Below, piece after piece: positions 13,316 to 23,749 of a DNA stretch of 64,000 nucleotides (position 1 is the stretch's first letter; the number at the start of each line of letters is the position of its first letter). This stretch comes from Gemmobacter lanyuensis (lineage in GTDB: Bacteria; Pseudomonadota; Alphaproteobacteria; Rhodobacterales; Rhodobacteraceae). Below the pieces are notes generated by a model, which made no database searches, was not told the origin of the DNA, and saw only the letters and a list, made by a program, of their open reading frames with translations. The stretch covers positions 62,001 to 126,000 of the forward strand of contig NZ_BMYQ01000004.1 in the NCBI RefSeq assembly GCF_014652355.1. The letters are read 5' to 3'. The position numbers and the translations under genes were made by a program.

Positions 13316-13936
13316 TCAGCCAAGCGGGGCGAGCAAGGCCTGCAGGCCCGCCGCAGCGTCCTCGGTCTTCCAGATCTCCTCCCCCACACCAAAGAAATCG
13401 GTATAGGGGCCGAGCTTTTCGACCAGCGCAGTGGTCAGGGCGCCTTCGGCCACGATCGGGATCTCGATCATCTCGGACCACCACTGGAACAGGTCCAGTT
13501 CGGCCCGCGACCCGTCACCAAGCGGGGTTTCGCCCACCGGGCCGAACGCGGCGTAATCGGCCCCGGCTTCGGCGGCAGCCATGCCCTCATGTCGCGTCGT
13601 CCCGCAGAAGGCGCCGATAATGGCATCCTCACCCAGATCCTTGCGGAGCTTGCGGATATTGCGGGCGCCATCGGTCAGGTGGACGCCGTCCAGCCCGAGA
13701 CGCTCGACCAGTAGGGCGTGCTGCTCAATCACCAGCGCCACATCCCGGGCATGGGCCACCTCGCGCAGCGCATCGGCCGCGCGGGCAACGTTGTCCTCGT
13801 CTCGGCTGGCAAGGGCAAGACGCACACAGGCAACCTCGACCGCGTCCAGGACACCTGCCAGACGTGCCGGGAAGACCTCAAGGTCAAATGCCGGAGGGGT
13901 GACAAGGTAGATCTGAGGGCGTTCTGCTTCGGACAT
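13316..13936 (-). CDS. Thiamine phosphate synthase family protein (ThiE-like)
   Basis: A 206-residue TIM-barrel protein of the ThiE/TenI family. ThiE joins hydroxymethylpyrimidine diphosphate and thiazole phosphate to make thiamine phosphate. Seen are the family strand GLDGVHLTDGARNIRKLRK near residues 80-98, HEGMAAAEAGADYAAFGPV near 116-134 and PIVAEGAL near 160. However, the classical ThiE Q-x-R-x-K entry motif is replaced by VRLALASRDED, and the GPVFPTxTK loop is GPVGETPLGD, so the diphosphate-binding residues are altered. It may therefore be a ThiE paralogue with another role. No other thiamine genes and no TPP riboswitch are nearby. Confidence 0.75.
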   Translation of the reverse strand: MSEAERPQIYLVTPPAFDLEVFPARLAGVLDAVEVACVRLALASRDEDNVARAADALREVAHARDVALVIEQHALLVERLGLDGVHLTDGARNIRKLRKDLGEDAIIGAFCGTTRHEGMAAAEAGADYAAFGPVGETPLGDGSRAELDLFQWWSEMIEIPIVAEGALTTALVEKLGPYTDFFGVGEEIWKTEDAAAGLQALLAPLG

Positions 13937-14012: not shown

Positions 14013-14079
14013 AAGGGGCTATCCGCCCCCTCTGGACCTGCGGCCCATTCACCCCCGAGGATATTTGGACAACGGGAAG
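14013..14079 (+). repeat. Dispersed composite repeat, long form (copy a)
   Basis: A short GC hairpin (GGGGC-tatcc-GCCCC), a linker CTCTGGACCTGCGGCCCATTC, then the core ACCCCCGAGGATATTTG followed by GACAACGGGAAG. The same long form, with few differences, recurs inverted at 21808-21874. With copy b it forms an inverted pair 142 bases apart. It lies in the 418-base gap 13937-14354 between the divergent thiE-like gene and trmJ; apart from the repeats I see no gene there. Confidence 0.85.
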
Positions 14080-14221
14080 GACATAAGTGCGAGGTCAGCC
14101 CCTGCCGGGAGATCAGATCAAGCCGACAGGGGCCTTCCCGTTGACGGTCATCGGCGTCCCCGCCTGTACCGTCTCATCAGACTGACTGAAATGGGTTAAG
14201 CAAGTATGAACACTCCTCCAG

Positions 14222-14270
14222 TTCCCGTTGTCCAAATATCCTCGGGGGTGCGGGGGCAGACAGCCCCCGC
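14222..14270 (-). repeat. Dispersed composite repeat, short form (copy b)
   Basis: Read on the minus strand: hairpin GGGGGC-tgtct-GCCCCC, then core ACCCCCGAGGATATTTG followed by GACAACGGGAA. The short form recurs at 21711-21761. Its core is an exact inverted copy of copy a, including the G that differs from the other locus. A stray fragment TTCCCGTTG at 14135-14143 matches the end of the core and may be a decayed third copy. Confidence 0.85.
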
Positions 14271-14354
14271 TGCTTCTCTGCCATCCCGCGCCTGCCCTTG
14301 TTTCCTTGTGGTGTCCGGCGTATCAGGCCCGGCGTGCTGAAAGGGACAAAGCCC

Positions 14355-15101
14355 ATGATCGACCCTGCCATCATCCTTGTCCGCCCCCAGATGGGCGAAA
14401 ACATCGGCGCGGCGGCGCGGGCGATGCTGAACTTCGGTCTGACGCGGATGCGGGTTGTGGGGCCGCGCGATGGTTGGCCCAACCCCAAGGCGGTGGCCAT
14501 GGCCAGCGGTGCCGGGCGGGTCCTCGATCAGGCGGGGCTTTTTGCCGATGTGCCCGCCGCGATTGCGGATTGTGATTTCGTCTTTGCCACCACCGCGCGG
14601 GGGCGTGAGCTGACCAAACCCGTGATGACTCCGGAACGGGCGATGGAATATGCCCGCGCGCTCTCGGCCGAGGGCAAGCGGGTCGGCATTCTCTTTGGTC
14701 CGGAACGCGCGGGGTTGGAAAATGAGGATGTCGTTCTGGCCAATGCCATCATCACTGTTCCGGTGAACCCGGAGTTTCCCTCGCTCAACCTCGGGCAATG
14801 CGTGCTGCTGATGGGCTATGAATGGGGCCGTAAGAAGCAGGAGGTCGCGCCCGAGGTGATGAACTTCGCGCGCACCGAATACGCGCAGGCGCATGAGATC
14901 GAGGCGCTGGCCCGGCATTTCGAAGAGCGGCTGGAGCTTGCGGGTTTTTTCTTCCCGCCGGCCAAAGCCCCGGGGATGAAGGTCTCGCTTCGCAACATGT
15001 GGTCGCGTTTGCCGCTGACCACGGCTGAGGTGCGGACTTTCCACGGCATGCTGCGCCAGATCGCCTTCAAGCTGGGCGAGGGCGGGCAGAAGAAACCCTG
15101 A
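14355..15101 (+). CDS. trmJ: tRNA (cytidine/uridine-2'-O-)-methyltransferase TrmJ
   Basis: A 248-residue SPOUT methyltransferase that 2'-O-methylates position 32 of several tRNAs using S-adenosylmethionine. The three SpoU motifs are present: NIGAAARAMLNFG (motif 1, residues 16-28), ILFGPERAGLENEDV (motif 2, near 115) and VPVNPEFPSLNLGQCVLLMGYE (motif 3, near 135-156), which form the knotted cofactor site. The C-terminal 80 residues are helical as in TrmJ rather than short TrmL, supporting this assignment. The ATG at 14355 is preferred because the protein then begins at the first strand (MIDPAIILVRPQMGEN). Confidence 0.88.
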   Translation: MIDPAIILVRPQMGENIGAAARAMLNFGLTRMRVVGPRDGWPNPKAVAMASGAGRVLDQAGLFADVPAAIADCDFVFATTARGRELTKPVMTPERAMEYARALSAEGKRVGILFGPERAGLENEDVVLANAIITVPVNPEFPSLNLGQCVLLMGYEWGRKKQEVAPEVMNFARTEYAQAHEIEALARHFEERLELAGFFFPPAKAPGMKVSLRNMWSRLPLTTAEVRTFHGMLRQIAFKLGEGGQKKP

Positions 15102-15176
15102 GCGCGCAACTTCCCGCGCGCCCTTGAACCCCGGCAGGGTGAGGCCTAGTCTCCGCCGCAAGGAATGGAGACGCCG

Positions 15177-16331
15177 ATGGCACAGAAACGCAGCATCTTT
15201 GAAGAAGTCGGGGCCGATACCCGGCCTGTCCCCCCCGCGACGCCGGGGCTGATCGACCGTGGCCAAGGTGGCGCGCGCGGCGCGATCCGGATGTGGCTTG
15301 TGCTGATCTTCGTTCTGGTGGCGAGCATGATTGTCGTCGGCGGGCTGACCCGACTGACCGACAGTGGCCTGTCGATCACTGAATGGAAGCCGGTCACGGG
15401 TGCGCTGCCGCCGATGACCGATGCCGCCTGGTCCGAGGAATTCGCCAAATATCAGGCCAGCCCCGAATATCAGCTGCAGAACAAGGGGATGGAGCTTGCG
15501 GCCTTCAAATCCATCTTCTGGTGGGAATGGGGGCATCGTCAGCTGGGCCGGGTGATCGGTCTGGTCTGGGCGCTGGGCTTTGTGGGCTTTCTGGCCGCGC
15601 GCAAGATCCCGGCCGGGTGGACGGGGCGTCTTTTGGGCCTTGGGGCGCTGGGCGGGCTTCAGGGCGCCATCGGCTGGTGGATGGTGTCTTCGGGTTTGAA
15701 GGGCGAGATGGTCGATGTGGCCTCGTATCGGCTTGCCACGCATCTGGGGATCGCCTTTGTCATTCTGGGATTGACGGCCTGGTATGTCCTTCTTCTGGGG
15801 CGTTCCGAGGCCGAGCTGTTGCAGGCCCGCCGCGCGCGGGAGGGCAAGCTTTTCAGCCTCTCGACCGGTCTCATGCATTTTGCCTTCCTGCAGATCCTGC
15901 TGGGGGCGCTGGTGGCGGGGATTGACGCGGGCCGCGCCTTCCCGACCTGGCCCGACATGAACGGCCAGTTCTTCCCGGCGGATGCCTTCTATGTGCCGGG
16001 GCGTCCGCTTTGGGCGGCCTTCTTCGAAAATCCGGGCCTGGTGCAGTTCATGCACCGCATGGCGGGCTACCTGCTGGTGGCCTTTGGCGTCGTGGTCTAT
16101 CTGCGCGGCCGCAAATCCGCCCATGGCGCCACGCGCACGGCCTTTCTGGCGATCCTCTGCATGCTGATCCTGCAGATGGTGCTGGGCATCGTCACCGCGC
16201 TGACCGCCGCACATTTGCATGTGGCGATCACCCATCAGCTGGGCGCCATCCTTCTGTGGGTGCTGATCCTGCGGGCCCGCTATCTGTCGCAATACCCGGT
16301 TGCCGGGTCGATCCGTGAAGGGACGCAGTAA
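15177..16331 (+). CDS. ctaA: Heme A synthase (COX15/CtaA type)
   Basis: A 384-residue integral membrane enzyme that oxidises the C8 methyl of heme O to the formyl group of heme A, needed for aa3-type cytochrome oxidase. About eight membrane helices can be traced, with the four heme-ligand histidine regions WEWGHRQLGR, YRLATHLGI, QFMHRMAGY and HLHVAITHQLGA. Length fits the type-2 enzymes of alphaproteobacteria and mitochondria. The second ATG (15177) is chosen because GGAG lies seven bases ahead of it; an ATG at 15165 would add four residues. It is followed after one base by the carboxypeptidase gene. Confidence 0.93.
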   Translation: MAQKRSIFEEVGADTRPVPPATPGLIDRGQGGARGAIRMWLVLIFVLVASMIVVGGLTRLTDSGLSITEWKPVTGALPPMTDAAWSEEFAKYQASPEYQLQNKGMELAAFKSIFWWEWGHRQLGRVIGLVWALGFVGFLAARKIPAGWTGRLLGLGALGGLQGAIGWWMVSSGLKGEMVDVASYRLATHLGIAFVILGLTAWYVLLLGRSEAELLQARRAREGKLFSLSTGLMHFAFLQILLGALVAGIDAGRAFPTWPDMNGQFFPADAFYVPGRPLWAAFFENPGLVQFMHRMAGYLLVAFGVVVYLRGRKSAHGATRTAFLAILCMLILQMVLGIVTALTAAHLHVAITHQLGAILLWVLILRARYLSQYPVAGSIREGTQ

Positions 16332-16332
16332 C

Positions 16333-17802
16333 ATGACCGCATTCGATGAGCTGATGGCCTTCCAGCGCGAAACCGAGGCGCTGGCGCAGATCGCGGGCCG
16401 GTTGGGCTGGGATCAGGAAACCATGATGCCCCGCGGCGCCGCCGATCAGCGTGGCGAGGAAATGTCAGCCATCGAGGGCGTCCTGCACGCCCGCCGCACT
16501 GATCCGCGCGTGGCCGAATGGTTGGCCACCGCCGAGCCGCAGGATGACGAAGACCGCGCGCAACTGCGCCAGATCCGCCGCGCGCATCAGCGGGCGACGA
16601 AGATCCCGGCCGAGCTGGCGCAAAAGCTGGCCCGCGTCACCTCGACCGCGCAGGGCATCTGGGCCGAGGCCCGGGCCGCCGACCGGGTTGAGGATTTCCT
16701 GCCCACCTTGGCCGAGGTCATCGCCCTGAAGCGCGAAGAGGCAGCGGCCCTTGCGGCGGGCGGCAATCTTTATGATGCGCTCATGGATGATTACGAACCG
16801 GGCGCCACGGCAGAGACGATCGGCGCCATGTTCGACCGCATGCGCCCGCGTCTGGTGCGTCTGCGCGCCGCCGTGCTGGAGGCCGCGCCGCCCCCGAAGC
16901 TGGACCACCATTTCGGTGAAAACGCCCAGCTGCGCTTTGCGCGCGATCTGGCGGCGACCTTCGGCTATGATTTCACCCGCGGGCGGCTGGATCTGGCGGT
17001 GCATCCCTTCAGCTCGGGGTCGGGGAATGATGTCCGCATCACCACCCGCGTGGTCGAGAAAGACCCCTTCAACTGCTTCTATTCAACCATCCACGAAGTC
17101 GGCCATGCCTGCTATGAACTGGGGATTGATCAGGATTACCTGCTGACGCCCTTGGGCAACGGCGTGTCTATGGGTGTCCATGAAAGCCAGAGCCGGATCT
17201 ATGAAAACCAGCTGGGTCGCAGCCCCGCCTTCACCGGCTGGATGTTCCGCCAGATGCTGGATCGCTTCGGCGATTTCGGCGTCGCCGGCCCCGAGGATTT
17301 CGCCCGCATCGTCAACCGAGTGCAGCCCGGTTTCATCCGGACCGAGGCCGATGAGGTGCATTACAACCTCCATGTGATGATGCGCTTCGATCTGGAACGC
17401 GCGTTGATCCGCGGGGATCTGCAGGTGCGTGATCTTGAGGCCGCTTGGAACGACCGCTTCCTTGCCGATTTCGGCGTGGCGGTGGACCGTCCTTCCAACG
17501 GCATGCTGCAGGATGTGCATTGGTCCTGCGGGCTGTTCGGCTATTTCCCCACTTACACGTTGGGGAATGTCTATGCGGGCTGCCTGCATCATACCCTGCG
17601 CGAGGCGATCACCGATCTGGATGATCATCTGTCGCGCGGCGATCTGGCCCCGGCGACGGGTTGGCTGCGCGAACATGTGCAGCGCCATGGCGGGCTTTAC
17701 CTGCCGCGCGACACGATCACCCGCGCCTGTGGCTTCACGCCCAGCGAGGGGCCGCTGCTTGACTATCTCGACGCCAAATTCGGCGCGCTTTACGGGCTGT
17801 AA
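16333..17802 (+). CDS. M32 family metallocarboxypeptidase (carboxypeptidase Taq type)
   Basis: A 489-residue cytoplasmic zinc carboxypeptidase that removes C-terminal amino acids. The zinc-binding HEVGH motif is at about residue 254 (STIHEVGHACYE), with the third ligand in the following HESQSRIYEN helix near residue 280, as in the family. The protein is largely helical and of normal length. It starts one base after the ctaA stop and is followed immediately by the MFS gene, so the three could be one transcription unit, although their functions are unrelated. Confidence 0.92.
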   Translation: MTAFDELMAFQRETEALAQIAGRLGWDQETMMPRGAADQRGEEMSAIEGVLHARRTDPRVAEWLATAEPQDDEDRAQLRQIRRAHQRATKIPAELAQKLARVTSTAQGIWAEARAADRVEDFLPTLAEVIALKREEAAALAAGGNLYDALMDDYEPGATAETIGAMFDRMRPRLVRLRAAVLEAAPPPKLDHHFGENAQLRFARDLAATFGYDFTRGRLDLAVHPFSSGSGNDVRITTRVVEKDPFNCFYSTIHEVGHACYELGIDQDYLLTPLGNGVSMGVHESQSRIYENQLGRSPAFTGWMFRQMLDRFGDFGVAGPEDFARIVNRVQPGFIRTEADEVHYNLHVMMRFDLERALIRGDLQVRDLEAAWNDRFLADFGVAVDRPSNGMLQDVHWSCGLFGYFPTYTLGNVYAGCLHHTLREAITDLDDHLSRGDLAPATGWLREHVQRHGGLYLPRDTITRACGFTPSEGPLLDYLDAKFGALYGL

Positions 17803-18981
17803 GTGCGGATGCAGGGCAGGGCGGTCTGGGCGCTGGCGCTTGGCCAGACCCTGACCTATGCGACGCTCTACTACGGCTTCGCCGCCCTGCTGCCGCATCT
17901 GGAGGCGGCGACCGGCTGGACCAAGGCGCAGCTGGCCGCTGGCCCGACGCTGGCCTTTCTGGTGACGGCGGTGCTGACCCCGCTGACCGGCCGTCTGGTG
18001 GACCGCGGTCTGGGCGGAGAGATGCTGGTGATCCTGCCCGCCGTGGGCGCAGGGGGCCTTGCCCTTCTGACGCTGGCGCCGACGCCGCTGGTCTGGGTGT
18101 TGCTTTGGGCCGTGATCGGGCTGGCGCAATCAGGCAGCCTATACGAAACCTGTTTCGCCTTCCTGACGCGTAGACTGGGTGATGGCGCGCGTGCGGCCAT
18201 CACGCGGATCACGCTGGTCGCGGGACTGGCCTCAACCCTTGCCTTCCCCTTGGGCAGCCTTCTGGGCAGTGCCCTTGGCGGGCGCGGGGCGCTGCTGGCC
18301 TTTGCGGTGCTGGGCGTGGTGACGGTGGTCCCACTGAACCTTTGGGCGGTGCGGGTGCTGCGCCGGTCAGACCGTGCAGGCGGGGGCCGTGCCGTGCCGC
18401 AGCCGGGCCTGCTGGCCCGCGCCATGCGCCAGCCAGCCTTCTGGCTGATCGCGGCCATCTTCGGGGCGATCTGGCTGAACCACGCGATTCTGATCACCTA
18501 TGCGCTGACGCTGTTTGAAAGTCAGGGCGCCACCCCGGCCACGGCGGTTCTGGCGGCAAGCTGCATCGGGCCGTCGCAGGTGATCGGGCGGCTGGCGCTG
18601 ATGCTGAACGAAGCGCGGGTTGATAACCGCATGGCCACACGGCTAGCGTTGGGGTCGATCCTGCTGGCGGCGGCGCTGCTGCATCTGGCCGGGGCAGCGC
18701 CGCTGCTGATTTTCGGCTTTGCCATGGCGCAGGGGGCAGGGGCGGGGCTTTTGTCGATCCTCCGCCCTGTGCTTCAGGCCGAAAAGCTGGGGCGTGAGGG
18801 CTTTGGCGTTGTCTCTGGCGCGATTGCGGTGGCGCCCATCCTTGCCACCGCCGCCGGGCCTTCGGTCGGCGCGGCGCTGCTGGATTGGGGGGGCGCGGAC
18901 GGGGTTATTGCCGCCTGTGCCGCCCTTGGCGGGGGCGGCCTGCTGCTGGGCATATGGTTGACCCGCCGCCTGCAGGCCTAA
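17803..18981 (+). CDS. Major facilitator superfamily transporter
   Basis: A 392-residue membrane protein with about 12 hydrophobic helices and the MFS loop 2-3 type segment (PLTGRLVDRGLGG near residues 58-70). Substrate unknown; the sequence resembles the monocarboxylate/oxalate-type MFS branch in its short loops, but that is weak. It begins with GTG directly after the carboxypeptidase stop; an ATG two codons later (17809) is an equally good start, neither having a clear ribosome site. It converges with the MnmC2-like gene, overlapping by four bases. Confidence 0.85.
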   Translation: MRMQGRAVWALALGQTLTYATLYYGFAALLPHLEAATGWTKAQLAAGPTLAFLVTAVLTPLTGRLVDRGLGGEMLVILPAVGAGGLALLTLAPTPLVWVLLWAVIGLAQSGSLYETCFAFLTRRLGDGARAAITRITLVAGLASTLAFPLGSLLGSALGGRGALLAFAVLGVVTVVPLNLWAVRVLRRSDRAGGGRAVPQPGLLARAMRQPAFWLIAAIFGAIWLNHAILITYALTLFESQGATPATAVLAASCIGPSQVIGRLALMLNEARVDNRMATRLALGSILLAAALLHLAGAAPLLIFGFAMAQGAGAGLLSILRPVLQAEKLGREGFGVVSGAIAVAPILATAAGPSVGAALLDWGGADGVIAACAALGGGGLLLGIWLTRRLQA

Positions 18982-20018
18982 AGGCTGTCTTCGACGCGGA
19001 AGCCGGGCGGGATGGCATCTTCGCCGGTCAGGATCAGCCGGGCCATGACCTCGGCCACCTTGGGCGCCATGCCAAAGCCGATCTTGAAGCCGCCATTGGC
19101 GATGAAATGGCCGGGGCGGTCGGGCCAGGCCCCCAGCATTGGCGCCCGCGACCGCGCGCGGGGCCGCAGACCGGCCCAGCGATCCACCACCGGCGCCCCG
19201 GCAAGACAGGGCAGCGCCGCCACGGCGCGAGCATGCAGGTCATCCAGCTGTGCGTCGGTCGCGGTCGGATCGTCATAGTCCCGCTCGGAGGTCGAGCCGA
19301 TAGCCACGGTCCCATTCGCATGGGGCACGATATGCAGCCCGTCAACATAAAGCTGCGCCTTGTCAGCGGCCTCGAACCGCAGGCTCAGCGCCTGACCTTT
19401 CACGCCGTTGCCCACAGGCCGCCCCAGCGCGGCCGACAGATCCTGCAACCCCGCAGCGCCCGTGGCATGTAGGACAATCCCCTCATCCTCGGCCGCGCCC
19501 AGCACGATCTCGGCCCCTTTCGCGCGCAGCGCCGCCACGAGGGCCGCCGCCGCCATGCGCGGATGCAGCCGCGCCGACAGCGTGTCATGGATCAGATGGC
19601 CGCTGGGGCTGACAGGTTCCCAGGTGGCGCCCGTGGCGGGCACCACCTGCCACAGCGCCTTCCCGGCCCAGAGTGTTGCCGCCGATTGCGCCCGCTCTGC
19701 CGCCTTGGCCATGGCCCCGGCATCGGTCAGCGGCTGCAGCCGCCCCGACCGGGCATAGCCACTGGGCTGTCCACCCGCCACCTCGACCCCCGCCCAGAAA
19801 TCGGCAGCCATCAACAGGCTTTCCAACTGAAACTGTTTCTTGGGGTTCCAGTTTTCCGGCATATGCGGCGACAGGGCGCCCACCAGCCCGCCCGAGGCCC
19901 CCGCCCCGATGCGCGCGGTTTCCACCAGCCGCACCCGCGCGCCGCCCTGCACCAGCGCCCAGGCACAGGCCAACCCGAAGATTCCGCCGCCCCGCACCGT
20001 CACATCGCAGCTTGCCAT
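18978..20018 (-). CDS. FAD-dependent oxidoreductase, MnmC C-domain/glycine oxidase type
   Basis: A 346-residue flavoprotein of the DAO family. It starts with a Rossmann motif in which the usual GxGxxG reads VRGGGIFGLACAWALVQGG, then GASGGLVGALSPHMPENWNPKK, very like the oxidase half of MnmC, and ends with the FAD contact GGFKIGFGMAPKVAE. In MnmC this domain removes the carboxymethyl group from cmnm5(s2)U34 in tRNA to give nm5(s2)U34. The divergent neighbour is the other half, MnmD, which then methylates that product. I infer that the two genes are a split MnmC; a free-standing glycine or D-amino acid oxidase is the alternative. Confidence 0.75.
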   Translation of the reverse strand: MASCDVTVRGGGIFGLACAWALVQGGARVRLVETARIGAGASGGLVGALSPHMPENWNPKKQFQLESLLMAADFWAGVEVAGGQPSGYARSGRLQPLTDAGAMAKAAERAQSAATLWAGKALWQVVPATGATWEPVSPSGHLIHDTLSARLHPRMAAAALVAALRAKGAEIVLGAAEDEGIVLHATGAAGLQDLSAALGRPVGNGVKGQALSLRFEAADKAQLYVDGLHIVPHANGTVAIGSTSERDYDDPTATDAQLDDLHARAVAALPCLAGAPVVDRWAGLRPRARSRAPMLGAWPDRPGHFIANGGFKIGFGMAPKVAEVMARLILTGEDAIPPGFRVEDSL

Positions 20019-20082
20019 TCCCCGTTCCTTTCCGCAGTTTCACCCCCGAATGCGCCATCCGGGCGCGCAGGACGAAAGCACC

Positions 20083-20754
20083 ATGCCGACCGAAAAGGCC
20101 AGCCTTGATTGGCGCGACGGGGTGATTCCCGTCTCAACCCGCTTCGATGACCCCTATTTCAGCCTCAATGACGGCCTGAGCGAAACGCGACATGTTTTCC
20201 TGCGCGGCAACCGTCTGGCGGAACGGCTCCGCGACGGGTTCCATGTGGCGGAACTGGGCTTCGGCACGGGGCTGAACCTGCTGGCGCTGCAGATCCTCTG
20301 GGCGCAGATGGGCGCGCAGGGGATGATCCGCTTCACAAGTTTTGAGGGGTTTCCGATGCAGGCCGGTGACATGGCCCGCGCGCTCGACCACTTCCCCGAG
20401 GCCCGCGCCGTGGCCGGCCCGCTGCTGGATCAATGGGCCTCCGGCAGCACCACCCTGCATCTGCCGGGGATCGAGGCCGAGGTGATCCTGGGCGATGTGC
20501 GTGACACCCTTCCCGCCTGGGCTGGGCAGGCCGATGCCTGGTTCCTCGACGGCTTTTCGCCTGCCAAGAACCCCGAAATGTGGCAGCCTGAAATCCTGGC
20601 CGAGGTTGCAGCCCATACCGCAGCGCATGGCAGCTTTGCGACATATACTGCCGCTGGTGCGGTGCGGCGGGCTTTAAGTGACGCGGGCTTTGCGGTAGAG
20701 CGCGAAGCTGGCCATGGCCGCAAACGCCATATGACCGTCGGGCGCCTGCCCTGA
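20083..20754 (+). CDS. mnmD: tRNA 5-methylaminomethyl-2-thiouridine methyltransferase MnmD
   Basis: A 223-residue stand-alone version of the methyltransferase half of MnmC. It shows the family opening WRDGVIPVSTRFDDPYFSL, the S-adenosylmethionine site VAELGFGTGLNLLAL near residues 49-63, TSFEGFPM as motif II, and the diagnostic WFLDGFSPAKNPEMW near residues 150-164. It methylates the nm5(s2)U34 wobble base to mnm5(s2)U in tRNAs for Lys, Glu, Gln and others. It is divergent from the oxidase-like gene, with only 64 bases between the two start codons. Confidence 0.88.
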   Translation: MPTEKASLDWRDGVIPVSTRFDDPYFSLNDGLSETRHVFLRGNRLAERLRDGFHVAELGFGTGLNLLALQILWAQMGAQGMIRFTSFEGFPMQAGDMARALDHFPEARAVAGPLLDQWASGSTTLHLPGIEAEVILGDVRDTLPAWAGQADAWFLDGFSPAKNPEMWQPEILAEVAAHTAAHGSFATYTAAGAVRRALSDAGFAVEREAGHGRKRHMTVGRLP

Positions 20755-20801
20755 ACCCGCGCCGCCGACCGCGACGCCCCTTGCCGATCTAAGGAACCCC
20801 G

Positions 20802-21704
20802 ATGGTCCCGCGCGCCCAACAGAACACCTCGCTCGGCATCCTGCTGATGGCGATCACCTCGCTGGTTTTCTCGCTGCAGGATGGCATTTCGCGCCACCTG
20901 GCCGAGAATTACAATGTGTGGATGGTGGTGATGATCCGCTTCTGGTTCTTCGCCCTGTTCGCCCTGACGCTCTCCGCGCGGCGGCCCGGCGGCATCGCGA
21001 CCGTGATCCGCTCGCGCCATCCCCTGATGCAATTTGCCCGCAGCGCGATCCTGATCATCGAGGTCTGCGTGATGATCCTCGGTTTCGTGAAACTGGGCCT
21101 GATCGCAAGCCACGCGGTTTTCGTCAGCTACCCGCTGATCATCGCCGCCCTCTCCGGCCCGATCCTTGGCGAACATGTCGGTTGGCGGCGCTGGTGCGCC
21201 ATCGGCGTGGGCTTTGTCGGCGTGCTGATCATCCTGCAGCCGGGGGTGGCCGTCTTTTCCCCTTGGGCGCTCGTCCCGCTCGCCGCCGCGCTGCTTTTTG
21301 CGCTCTACGGCCTGCTCACCCGCTATGTGGCCGGGGGCGATGCGGCCATGACGAGCTTTCTCTGGACGGGCGTTGTCGCCGCGATTCTCATTACGCCGGT
21401 CGGCCTCTTTTTCTGGGAACCGATGACCCAGGGCGACTGGATCTGGATGGGCATCCTTTGCCTGTCGGGTGCCGGCGCACATTACATGATGATCAAGGCC
21501 TATGAAGTCGCAGAAGCCAGCGACATTCAGCCCTTCGCGCTGCTGCAACTCGTCTTCATCTCCATCCTCGGTATCACGGTCTTTGATGAAGAGGTGAAGA
21601 TGAACATGGTCATCGGCGCAGCCCTCGTCATGGGCGCGGCCCTCTTCACCCTCTACCGCGCCCGTGTGGTCGCGCGACAGGCCCGATTGGCGCGCGGGGC
21701 CTGA
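20802..21704 (+). CDS. EamA/DMT family transporter
   Basis: A 300-residue inner-membrane protein with ten predicted helices forming two EamA repeats (first about residues 10-140, second about 155-290; duplicated motifs near FVSYPLIIAALSGPILGEHVG and ALLQLVFISILGITVFDEE). Family members export or import metabolites and amino acids; the substrate is not evident. It follows mnmD by 47 bases and ends next to repeat copy c, whose hairpin may terminate it. Confidence 0.88.
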   Translation: MVPRAQQNTSLGILLMAITSLVFSLQDGISRHLAENYNVWMVVMIRFWFFALFALTLSARRPGGIATVIRSRHPLMQFARSAILIIEVCVMILGFVKLGLIASHAVFVSYPLIIAALSGPILGEHVGWRRWCAIGVGFVGVLIILQPGVAVFSPWALVPLAAALLFALYGLLTRYVAGGDAAMTSFLWTGVVAAILITPVGLFFWEPMTQGDWIWMGILCLSGAGAHYMMIKAYEVAEASDIQPFALLQLVFISILGITVFDEEVKMNMVIGAALVMGAALFTLYRARVVARQARLARGA

Positions 21705-21710
21705 GACCAA

Positions 21711-21761
21711 GCCGGGGGCTGTCTGCCCCCGGACCCCCGAGGATATTTGAACAACGGGAAG
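21711..21761 (+). repeat. Dispersed composite repeat, short form (copy c)
   Basis: Hairpin GGGGGC-tgtct-GCCCCC beginning a few bases after the EamA gene, then core ACCCCCGAGGATATTTG followed by AACAACGGGAAG. Near-identical to copy b at 14222-14270. With copy d it forms an inverted pair 46 bases apart, between two convergent genes, where it could act as a bidirectional terminator. Confidence 0.85.
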
Positions 21762-21807
21762 AACAGGGCGATCTCTGGGCACCCCTGACATGACCACGTT
21801 TTGCGGC

Positions 21808-21874
21808 TTCCCGTTGTTCAAATATCCTCAGGGGGTGAATGGCCGCAGGCCAGAGGGGGCGCGAGCGCCCCCTT
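21808..21874 (-). repeat. Dispersed composite repeat, long form (copy d)
   Basis: On the minus strand, three bases after the uvrC stop: hairpin GGGGGCGC-TC-GCGCCCCC, linker TCTGGCCTGCGGCCATTC, core ACCCCCTGAGGATATTTG followed by AACAACGGGAAG. The linker matches copy a and not copies b and c. Confidence 0.85.
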
Positions 21875-21877
21875 CTG

Positions 21878-23749
21878 TCAGCCCTTGTCGTGAAAGAAGT
21901 CGTGGATTTGCTGGGCAAGGGCAGCGGAGATGCCGGAGACGGCCATCAGGTCTTCGACCGCCGCGCGGGAGACGGCTTTGGCGCTGCCAAAATGGGCGAG
22001 GAGGGCGCGTTTGCGGGTCGCTCCGACGCCGGGGACTTCATCAAGCGGGGTGGCGGTTGTGGTTTTGGCGCGTTTGGCGCGGTGGGCGCCGATGGCCCAG
22101 CGGTGCGCCTCATCTCGCAGGCGCTGGACGAAGTAGAGCACCGGGTCATTCATGCGGAGGGCGAAGGGAGGTTCGCCGGGGCGGTGGAATTCTTCCTTGC
22201 CGTGGTCGCGGTCCACGCCTTTGGCTACGCCGATGAAGGGGATGTCATCGACGCCCAGTTCGGCCATGATCTCGGCCACGGCCGAAATCTGCCCGGCGCC
22301 GCCGTCGATCAGCAGGAGATCGGGCCAGAGGTCGGTCTTGCGGTCCGGGTCCTCCTTCAGCAGGCGTTCGAAACGGCGGGTCAGCACCTCTTTCATCATG
22401 CCGAAGTCATCGCCCTGGGCGCCCGCTTCGCCCTTGATGTTGAACTTGCGATACTGGCTTTTCAGGAAACCCTCGGCCCCGGCGACGATCATGCCGCCCA
22501 CGGCATGGGCGCCCTGGATATGGCTGTTGTCATAGACTTCGATCCGGCGGGGCGGGGCTTCGAGGTCGAAGGCCTCGGCCAGGCCCGCGAGCAGTTTGTT
22601 CTGCGTGCTGCTTTCCGCCATTTTCCGGGCGAGGCTTTCGCGCGCATTCCGGGCGGCGTTTTCCACAAGCTCGGCCTTTTCGCCGCGCAGGGGCACCGCC
22701 AGTTCCACCTTGCGTCCGGCGCGGTCTGACAGAAGCTGGGTCACCAGATCCTCATTTTCAACCGGGTGCGAGAGCAGGATCAGGCGCGGCGGTTCCTTTT
22801 CATCGTAGAACTGGCTGAGGAAGGCCTCGAGGATCTCGGCCTCATCGGCGCCGGCGCCGGTTTTCGGGTAGAAATCCCGGTTGCCCCAGCTTTGATGGCC
22901 GCGGATGAAGAAAACCTGGACGCAGGCCTGCCCGCTTTCCAGGTGCAGCGCCACGACATCGGCCTCGGCCACGCCGCGGGGGTTGATGCCCTGGGCCGAT
23001 TGCACCGCCGTCAGCGCCTTGATCCGGTCGCGCAGGGCGGCGGCGCGTTCATATTCCATCGCCTCGGCGGCAGCCGACATGGCGCTGGCCAGATCGGCCT
23101 GTACGGTGGTGGATTTGCCTTCCAGAAACCGCGTCGCATCGTCAATCAGCGCCCGGTAATCCTGTTCCGAGATGCGCCCCACGCAGGGCGCGGCGCAGCG
23201 TTTGATCTGGAACAGCAAGCACGGCCGGGTGCGGCTTTGGAACACCGCATCGGTGCAGGTTCGCAGCAGGAACACACGCTGCAACTGGTTCAGCGTCCGG
23301 TTCACGGCGCCCGCGCTGGCGAAGGGGCCGAAGTATTTGCCGCGATCGGACCGCTTGCCGCGATGTTTGCGGATCATCGGGAAGGGGTGGTCCGTCGGGA
23401 TCAGGATATTCGGGAACGACTTGTCATCGCGCAGCAGCACGTTGTAGCGCGGCTTCAGCTGCTTGATGAGGTTCTGTTCCAGCAGCAGGGCCTCGGTCTC
23501 GGTCCGCGTCGTCAGGAACATCATCGAGGCCGTTTCATGGATCATCCGGGCGATCCGCCCGGAATGGCCCGAGGGGCGCGCATAGTTCGACACGCGCGCC
23601 TTCAGGTTGCGCGCCTTGCCGACGTAAAGCACCTCGTTCTGGGCGTTCAACATCCGGTAGACGCCGGGCGAGCCATCCAGCGTCTTGAGGTAGTCCTGAA
23701 TGAGGTCATGCCCGGTTTTTGCGGGGGGCGGCGGTGCGTCATCCTGCAT
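21878..23749 (-). CDS. uvrC: Excinuclease ABC subunit C
   Basis: A 623-residue nuclease that makes both incisions in UvrABC nucleotide excision repair. The N-terminal GIY-YIG domain is clear (SPGVYRMLN...[14 protein letters not shown] near residues 27-55), then the UvrB-binding UVR segment near 205-240, the RNase H-like 5' endonuclease domain ([22 protein letters not shown] near 400-420 with its catalytic Asp, and [11 protein letters not shown] near 490), and helix-hairpin-helix motifs at the C-terminus ([18 protein letters not shown]). Full length. The AT-rich gap upstream contains no obvious LexA box of the alphaproteobacterial GTTC-N7-GTTC type. Confidence 0.97.

Follow-up and report, generated by a model that had tools for sequence, protein, structure and literature searches.

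Gene-end hairpin elements with species-specific words in Gemmobacter lanyuensis and other Rhodobacterales

What does a composite repeat that lies in two mirror-image facing pairs represent in a stretch of Gemmobacter lanyuensis DNA? This stretch, hereafter the window, is 64,000 nucleotides (nt) long (C4:62001-126000, contig NZ_BMYQ01000004.1) and belongs to a genome of 4.03 Mb in 51 contigs. The original prediction, made from the letters of the window, had proposed four copies of a core preceded by GC hairpins, in a long and a short form, and read their order as that of a two-ended element or a selected long-range stem, not of random terminators. Our analysis places these copies in a family of elements found at the ends of about a hundred G. 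lanyuensis genes, whose last part, a short word, differs between species and has been exchanged in place. A scan of the window for the core recovered all four copies where they had been placed (+ 14052-14078, - 14222-14248, + 21734-21760 and - 21808-21834), three of them exact and the remaining one with a single mismatch, located in the C-run. Reading of the sequence also recovered the long form, with a TCT-stem-ATTCA linker (elements 1 and 4 in Table 1), and the short form, with GGGGGC-TGTCT-GCCCCC (elements 2 and 3); each locus does pair a long copy with a short one in facing orientation, with opposite left-right order at the two loci. The facing words are 143 nt apart at locus 1 and 47 nt apart at locus 2. 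The core is indeed shared by the four copies, but its true make-up is GGATATTT followed by three free bases and CAACGGGAA(G).

The complete module consists, in this order, of one or more GC hairpins, a C-run, GGATATTT, three free bases and a word of 9-10 nt. The genome carries 115 exact copies with three different words, A (CAACGGGAA, n = 21), B (CCAAGATGAA, n = 36) and C (GACAGAAAAT, n = 58), which share their hairpin modules. Word B was first met as the partner of one facing copy, and word C by reading 20 small loci (15 from BLAST places and five from the word-B list). The core is present far above chance: ATATTTNNNCAACGGGAA has 21 exact matches genome-wide, none with one mismatch and four with two, compared to five at two or fewer mismatches for a reversed-pattern control. 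A census of the whole of C1:1-800000 (hereafter c1), in which 20% of the genome was read base by base, identified 39 copies (21 C, 15 B and three A), all reading GGA-TATTT, three free bases and word; 25 of them are single and 14 form seven facing pairs (27 of 41 are single if two variant words are included). Among the 386 TATTT sites of c1, these 39, i.e., one in ten, carry a word at a constant 3-nt offset, where about 0.01 would be expected per word. The only exceptions to this spacing that we met are rare (two free bases at C3:121137 and four in one copy of locus L328). The free bases themselves vary, with 18 different triplets among the 39 copies, although TTG (n = 7) and TCA (n = 6) are commoner, so that some copying among elements is likely. 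No hairpin-GGATATTT module devoid of any word was seen by eye in c1, and two bear the near-word CCAAGGTGAA. Full words without the element are few in c1 (two A, four B and two C, six of these eight in coding DNA), and shorter 8-9-mers of the words lie outside the element in 2 of 5 (A), 10 of 25 (B) and 6 of 27 (C) cases. These orphan words of c1, thus of 20% of the genome, provided no candidate for a guide RNA with an anti-word.

Comparison with congeners shows the exchange of words in place. With locus 1 of the window taken into account, there are seven G. lanyuensis sites at which the matching gene end of a congener bears a different word; alignments (G153:117740, 129456 and 255238; L112, L118, L127 and L133) place the element at the same position. 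Hairpin and flanks are best kept, nearly unchanged, in L112 compared with C1:317324 and in G153:129456 compared with C1:109973. The congener G153 has 23 distinct elements (counted by hand), 16 of which have both flanks matched in the G. lanyuensis stretches read; G. lanyuensis has an element at 10 of these 16 sites and none at six. Five of the 10 shared sites bear the same word B, one as the variant CAATGTGAA; at the three G153 sites listed above, the G. lanyuensis counterpart has word A or C in the same direction, and G153:396406 corresponds to an A/B pair. We left out of the in-place exchanges G153:15400, because its counterpart (word A) has the opposite orientation, and G153:124735, for which only one flank was matched. 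Locus 1 of the window provides a further comparison: the A/A pair of G. lanyuensis is replaced, at the same place, by facing C-type pairs in G154 (GACAGAAAAT) and G150 (AACAGAAAAT) and by a degenerate pair in G155, whereas G149, G151, G152 and G153 have no element upstream of trmJ; this comparison leaves out G156, G157 and G158, whose pieces were too short or had other neighbours.

Other Rhodobacterales use the same frame with different words. A search of 149 genomes, each from a different genus, found word A in G. lanyuensis and as one chance-like match. A scan of contigs for word A returned at least 118 stretches, nearly all chance matches by title and context, the relevant ones being two contigs of Gemmobacter sp. 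UBA12163 (L248, judged by sequence, and L141, by title only); the congener G156 (L114) also has it. The pattern TATTTN2-5CAAGATGAA is present in 42 of the 149 genomes, with at least three copies in 27 of these and a maximum of 156, and GATATTTN3-5ACAGAAAAT in four, three of which have at least 10 copies; outside the family, the pattern for word B gave at most three matches (285 class members). Further words occur in the congeners G149 (CCAAGAGGAA and CAAGGGGAA), G156 (CCAAGAGGAA), G152, G155 and G158 (AACAGATGAA) and G157 (CAGGTTGAA and AACAGAAAAT). In 200 kb of G141 and G009, TATTT is followed by AAAAGATGA and GCAAAATG, with four copies each. Plasmids also carry the frame, with words mostly read from one copy each: GCCAGATGAA in Leisingera caerulea, GGAAGATGAA in Phaeobacter inhibens and Phaeobacter gallaeciensis, CAAGAAAGAA in Paracoccus pantotrophus and Paracoccus sp. 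MA, ACACAAAAGAA in P. aminovorans and CATGAAAGAC, as two facing copies, in P. aminophilus. These words sit behind closely similar hairpin modules, including the X (linker-stem) form in Paracoccus and Leisingera. On four Paracoccus plasmids (L604, L605, L607 and L601), the element lies behind the gene for 3-oxoacid CoA-transferase subunit B, with the words CAAGAAAGAA (twice), ACACAAAAGAA and CATGAAAGAC. In G041, of another genus (L082, reverse strand, about 1460-1520), no hairpin is obvious upstream of the core, and the other side of the core carries a GC hairpin and T-run of the classical kind. Spread by viruses was considered and rejected: the scan returned at least 120 stretches and, among the 80 loci listed (82 matches), nearly all are AT-rich chance matches, eight GC-rich loci resembling Rhodobacterales DNA. 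Two IMG/VR contigs of about 14 kb (L485 and L550) carry word-B elements with GC hairpins at about 1740-1770 and may be gene transfer agent clusters, a guess from their size alone; two other GC-rich contigs of this collection (L498 and L530) carry facing word-B pairs and are probably prophage or host DNA.

The hairpin module is closely alike across genera. Its hairpin is of the type G(n)-loop-C(n), one form adding a second hairpin, and its runs (G4-6, C4-6 and C4-7, by eye) follow each other in the order purine-pyrimidine-pyrimidine (R-Y-Y). The second stem is maintained by compensation: 44 distinct TC-stem-TCA elements from G. lanyuensis, congeners, Paracoccus and Leisingera have 20 different 5′ arms, and pairing over at least 4 bp is kept in 43 of them, compared to 15.6% of shuffles. 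The search pattern required the TC/TCA linkers and the C-runs but not the pairing; the constancy of linkers and C-runs in this set is therefore no result. Furthermore, the C-run ahead of GGATATTT has as many bases as the shorter hairpin 1 arm in 109 of the 127 copies that could be parsed (out of 151), compared to a mean of 67.5 and a maximum of 85 in 10,000 permutations, which ignore the relatedness of copies and thus are not an independent test. Each of the two C-runs could therefore pair with the G-run, or the three runs could form a triplex. For the 45 copies whose purine arm contains an A, the order of the third run relative to this arm is parallel in two, antiparallel in 17, tied in 25 and symmetric in one, the 17 antiparallel calls stemming mostly from one repeated module and being decided by one end base.

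Gene ends are the rule for the location of the element. Genes were called with a six-frame model seeded from typical codon use, and ten neighbours were spot-checked by Pfam. In the census, the gap that holds the copy is flanked by one or two gene 3′ ends in 37 of 39 cases, against a background of 275 of 377 gaps of at least 60 bp; 19 copies are in convergent gaps, 13 are co-directional and same-sense, five co-directional and reversed, and two in a divergent region. An element is held by 14 of 43 convergent, 13 of 232 co-directional and one of 102 divergent gaps of at least 60 bp. A same-sense gene lies upstream of 29 of 35 intergenic G. lanyuensis copies compared to 34 of 70 other intergenic TATTT sites (Fisher p 0.0007). 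Strict orientation along transcription was considered, since 32 of 39 G. lanyuensis copies have a same-sense gene upstream, but it is not claimed, given the weak figure in a second species: of 21 copies in G153, 12 have a same-sense gene upstream, eight are reversed between co-directional genes and one is divergent. Direction is thus at most a tendency.

A word that differs between species and is exchanged in place suggests that something in the cell reads it. Exact recurrence of the word amid varying free bases, combined with its change at many sites between species, is the pattern expected of a trans-acting reader. Our preferred reading, which we hold tentatively, is that of a gene-end RNA element acting in termination or 3′-end processing, whose word would be recognized by a putative lineage-specific trans factor. 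The hairpins would fold in the transcript where the gene ends, RNA polymerase would pause or be released, or an RNase would cut, at the AU-rich tract, and the upstream mRNA would be left with a protective 3′ hairpin; the word would be the binding site of a trans factor, either a protein or a small RNA, whose rapid change between lineages would carry all its sites along. The existence of a reader, like the choice among release, cleavage and protection as the exact step, is inferred. It is possible, although we consider it doubtful, that in Rhodobacterales the word is a lineage-specific address read by rapidly evolving putative trans factors, with at least three specificities here, a change of reader entailing an in-place change of all sites; such a system would have dialects, as uptake sequences do, but would act on transcript ends.

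Several observations weigh against the preferred reading. Locus 1 of the window is a divergent region devoid of gene 3′ end. Five of the 13 same-sense co-directional copies are followed by a gene whose start lies -5 to 16 nt past the word, so that such elements are probably transcribed through; copies also separate an FAD oxidoreductase (DAO) gene from soxD, and cobS from cobT, in what are likely operons. In the co-directional gaps of G. lanyuensis (13 same-sense, five reversed) and G153 (six and eight) taken together, 19 same-sense copies stand against 13 reversed ones (p 0.38). There is no classical U-run, the tract being AUAUUU only, and in other genera (L082, L090, L091 and L102) the core occurs without obvious upstream hairpin (by eye). 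Finally, near-variants of word B exist (CAATGTGAA, CAAAGCGAA and CAAGGTGAA), so that not every word is invariant.

The facing pairs from which the question arose can be accommodated by this gene-end reading: they are expected, because each of two neighbouring gene ends would have its own element. Among the 16 facing pairs found in the G. lanyuensis stretches read, which do not amount to a full genome count, 14 share their word (5.8 expected, p 4e-5), and an ATTCA/TCA-linker form faces a different form in 13 (7.7 expected, binomial p 0.007). The two window pairs, from which the idea arose, are part of both counts (once they are removed, 12 of 14 share their word and 11 of 14 have unlike forms), the form classes were drawn up after the sequences had been seen, and the word and form totals were counted by hand. 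All seven census pairs have the same word on both sides. Elsewhere, 18 pairs, a sample biased by several loci picked for their likeness to the long form, comprise 11 of linker and other form, four Y-Y, two X-X2 and one Y-s. The original prediction thus stands insofar as the pairs are real, non-random and usually of unlike forms; it had allowed that its two-ended element would fall if most copies were single and the forms unpaired, and in the census single copies are the majority, yet the forms are paired non-randomly. The two-ended element itself is not supported: in this unbiased 800-kb stretch, single copies predominate and bear the exact word as well, and the linker-stem form accounts for 7 of 27 singles. 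The arms of a pair could differ because long perfect palindromes are avoided. One locus of G121 (L086, about 1468-1530) is a near-perfect palindrome, in which two cores face each other across a 12-nt gap and their spacer bases (ATCG) are identical.

The rival that survives best, although we judge it rather unlikely, is a dispersed structure-forming repeat of the BoxC/PIT kind or of the bacterial interspersed mosaic element (BIME) kind, with hairpins homogenized by recombination, words spread by ectopic gene conversion and no reader. The close likeness of hairpin modules across genera, the equality of the C-run with the shorter arm, the G-C-C order of the three runs, as in intrastrand triplex motifs, and the unlike facing pairs, which parallel the type A + type B pairs of the TMECO repeats of Escherichia coli, all speak for it. 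However, conversion should also homogenize the free bases, which form 18 triplets in c1, word-only exchange with the adjoining bases kept (L112 and G153:129456) demands very short tracts, and the C-run permutation ignores the kinship of copies. A signal for DNA uptake or transfer, whose word would be read by an import receptor and whose dialects would be spread and swapped by biased import, is quite unlikely. It would explain the dialects, several per genome, the in-place swaps and the inverted pairs at gene ends (compare the accounts available from PMC3630211 and PMC1852404), but 115 copies per 4 Mb contrast with about a thousand or more for known uptake signals, full words are rare outside the element (eight orphans in c1) and a hairpin-GGATATTT-N3 frame of fixed layout is not required for uptake; the few copies, and their rarity within coding sequence, disfavour import-driven spread. 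Ordinary intrinsic terminators sharing a family-wide sequence by chance, which would account for hairpins shortly after stop codons and for the enrichment between convergent genes, are about as improbable: intrinsic termination is not known to involve a 10-nt word past the T-tract, set at a fixed 3-nt offset and varying in dialect, ATATTT stands in place of a U-run, and some copies are in operons or reversed. Least probable of all, and very unlikely, is a miniature mobile element spread by a transposase with the long and short forms as its two ends, since, despite the unlike facing pairs and the presence or absence of the element at locus 1 among congeners, most copies are single with the exact word, insertions would not exchange a word in place, and the Y1 transposase (PF01797) is missing from G. 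lanyuensis and nine of 10 congeners, other transposase families not having been searched.

The features of the two window loci are collected in Table 1. Locus 1 is flanked by divergent genes (thiE and a SpoU-type trmJ) and locus 2 by convergent ones (EamA and uvrC). Locus 1 also contains, at 14098-14143 between its elements, another hairpin (CCCCTG...CAGGGG) with the orphan word A after it, perhaps the remnant of a third element.

Table 1. Elements, their parts and neighbouring genes at the two loci of the window.
Feature	Position	Strand	Basis or remark
thiE, thiamine monophosphate synthase (TMP-TENI), divergent neighbour of locus 1	13316..13936	-	gene model, Pfam
Element 1, linker-stem (long, X) form	14013..14079	+	fold -21.0 kcal/mol
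Element 1, hairpin 1	about 14015-14029	+	GGGGC/GCCCC
Element 1, stem 2	about 14033-14047	+	
Element 1, second C-run	14052-14056	+	
Element 1, GGATATTT	14059-14066	+	
Element 1, free bases	14067-14069	+	GGA
Element 1, word A	14070-14079	+	CAACGGGAAG
Orphan word A, amid the locus 1 elements	14135..14143	-	CAACGGGAA, without TATTT
Element 2, short form	14222..14270	-	fold -26.0 kcal/mol
Element 2, word A	14222-14230	-	
Element 2, free bases	14231-14233	-	
Element 2, TATTT	14234-14238	-	
Element 2, C-run	14244-14248	-	
Element 2, hairpin	14250-14270	-	
SpoU-family RNA methyltransferase (trmJ-like), divergent neighbour of locus 1	14355..15101	+	gene model, Pfam
EamA transporter	20802..21704	+	gene model, Pfam; stop 39 nt ahead of element 3 TATTT
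Element 3, short form	21711..21761	+	fold -25.2 kcal/mol
Element 3, hairpin	21712-21732	+	
Element 3, second C-run	21734-21738	+	
Element 3, GGATATTT	21741-21748	+	
Element 3, free bases	21749-21751	+	GAA
Element 3, word A	21752-21761	+	
Element 4, linker-stem (long, X) form	21808..21874	-	fold -26.8 kcal/mol
Element 4, word A	21808-21816	-	
Element 4, free bases	21817-21819	-	
Element 4, TATTT	21820-21824	-	
Element 4, stem 2 and hairpin 1	up to 21874	-	
uvrC	21878..23749	-	gene model, Pfam; 3′ end adjoins element 4 hairpin 1

If a reader exists, the target word of a gene-end signal has been altered repeatedly within one bacterial order, which would allow direct study of a regulator and about a hundred sites changing together. 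It would also offer a way to study the ending or cleavage of transcripts in GC-rich alphaproteobacteria. In PMC8625941, the 3′ ends of small RNAs derived from 5′ untranslated regions in Rhodobacter sphaeroides are said to arise mostly by an unknown mechanism. The words may also tag recombined or imported DNA by lineage. Should no reader exist, this is still a family-wide repeat matched by no Rfam model in the window and seven element loci, nor in the open-licence literature searched. At gathering score, Rfam returned only tRNA and signal recognition particle RNA in the window; at the seven loci, every match on an element fell below this score, one nearby tRNA being above it. No description of the repeat was found in the titles and abstracts listed from the open-licence PubMed Central literature, and the word strings used as text queries gave, among the matches listed, unrelated titles only.

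Among known systems, repetitive extragenic palindromes (REPs), BIMEs and REP doublets forming hairpins (REPINs) are short palindromic units found at gene ends and in operons, single or as inverted pairs, in many copies per genome and with lineage specificity. The present element resembles them in being short, located at gene ends and in operons, single or in inverted pairs, and lineage-specific. In REPs and REPINs associated with REP-associated tyrosine transposases (RAYTs), inverted doublets are the conserved unit and singlets decay, whereas here 25 of the 39 census copies are single with an exact word; furthermore, stems vary by compensation while the downstream word is kept, and the genome is devoid of Y1/RAYT genes. 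PF01797 gave no match in G. lanyuensis, was present in one of 10 congeners and was detected in five of 14 control genomes, and spread by RAYT/IS200 elements was rejected on its absence from the genome; pure mobility does not explain the pattern of the words. The sole congener with Y1 transposases is G151 (five PF01797 matches on its contig C2). The intercistronic hairpins of the Rhodobacter puf operon, which reportedly stabilize the upstream mRNA, are also hairpins between operon genes in the same bacterial order, but we know of no word and no dispersed family attached to them. DNA uptake sequences and uptake signal sequences located in terminators share with the element 10-nt words, species dialects and inverted pairs beside gene ends; they number hundreds to thousands, including copies in coding DNA, unlike the 115 copies found here, with few orphans in c1, behind GGATATTT-N3 and usually behind a hairpin. 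A structural parallel exists with the enterobacterial BoxC/PIT/TMECO repeats, which are GC-rich, intergenic and dispersed, have three complementary homopurine/homopyrimidine runs and form close inverted unlike pairs, always of type A + type B in E. coli (5/5, PMC4666352). Their consensus (5′-CCCTCNCCCN3-6GGGNGAGGGN3GGGNGAGGG, same source) is not matched by the element when the runs are compared by eye, the run order being 5′ R-Y-Y 3′ here (class III; complement R-R-Y) and Y-R-R in TMECO. TMECO repeats do not favour gene ends, and the sections consulted in that source mention no word next to them, whereas the element reported here has both features.

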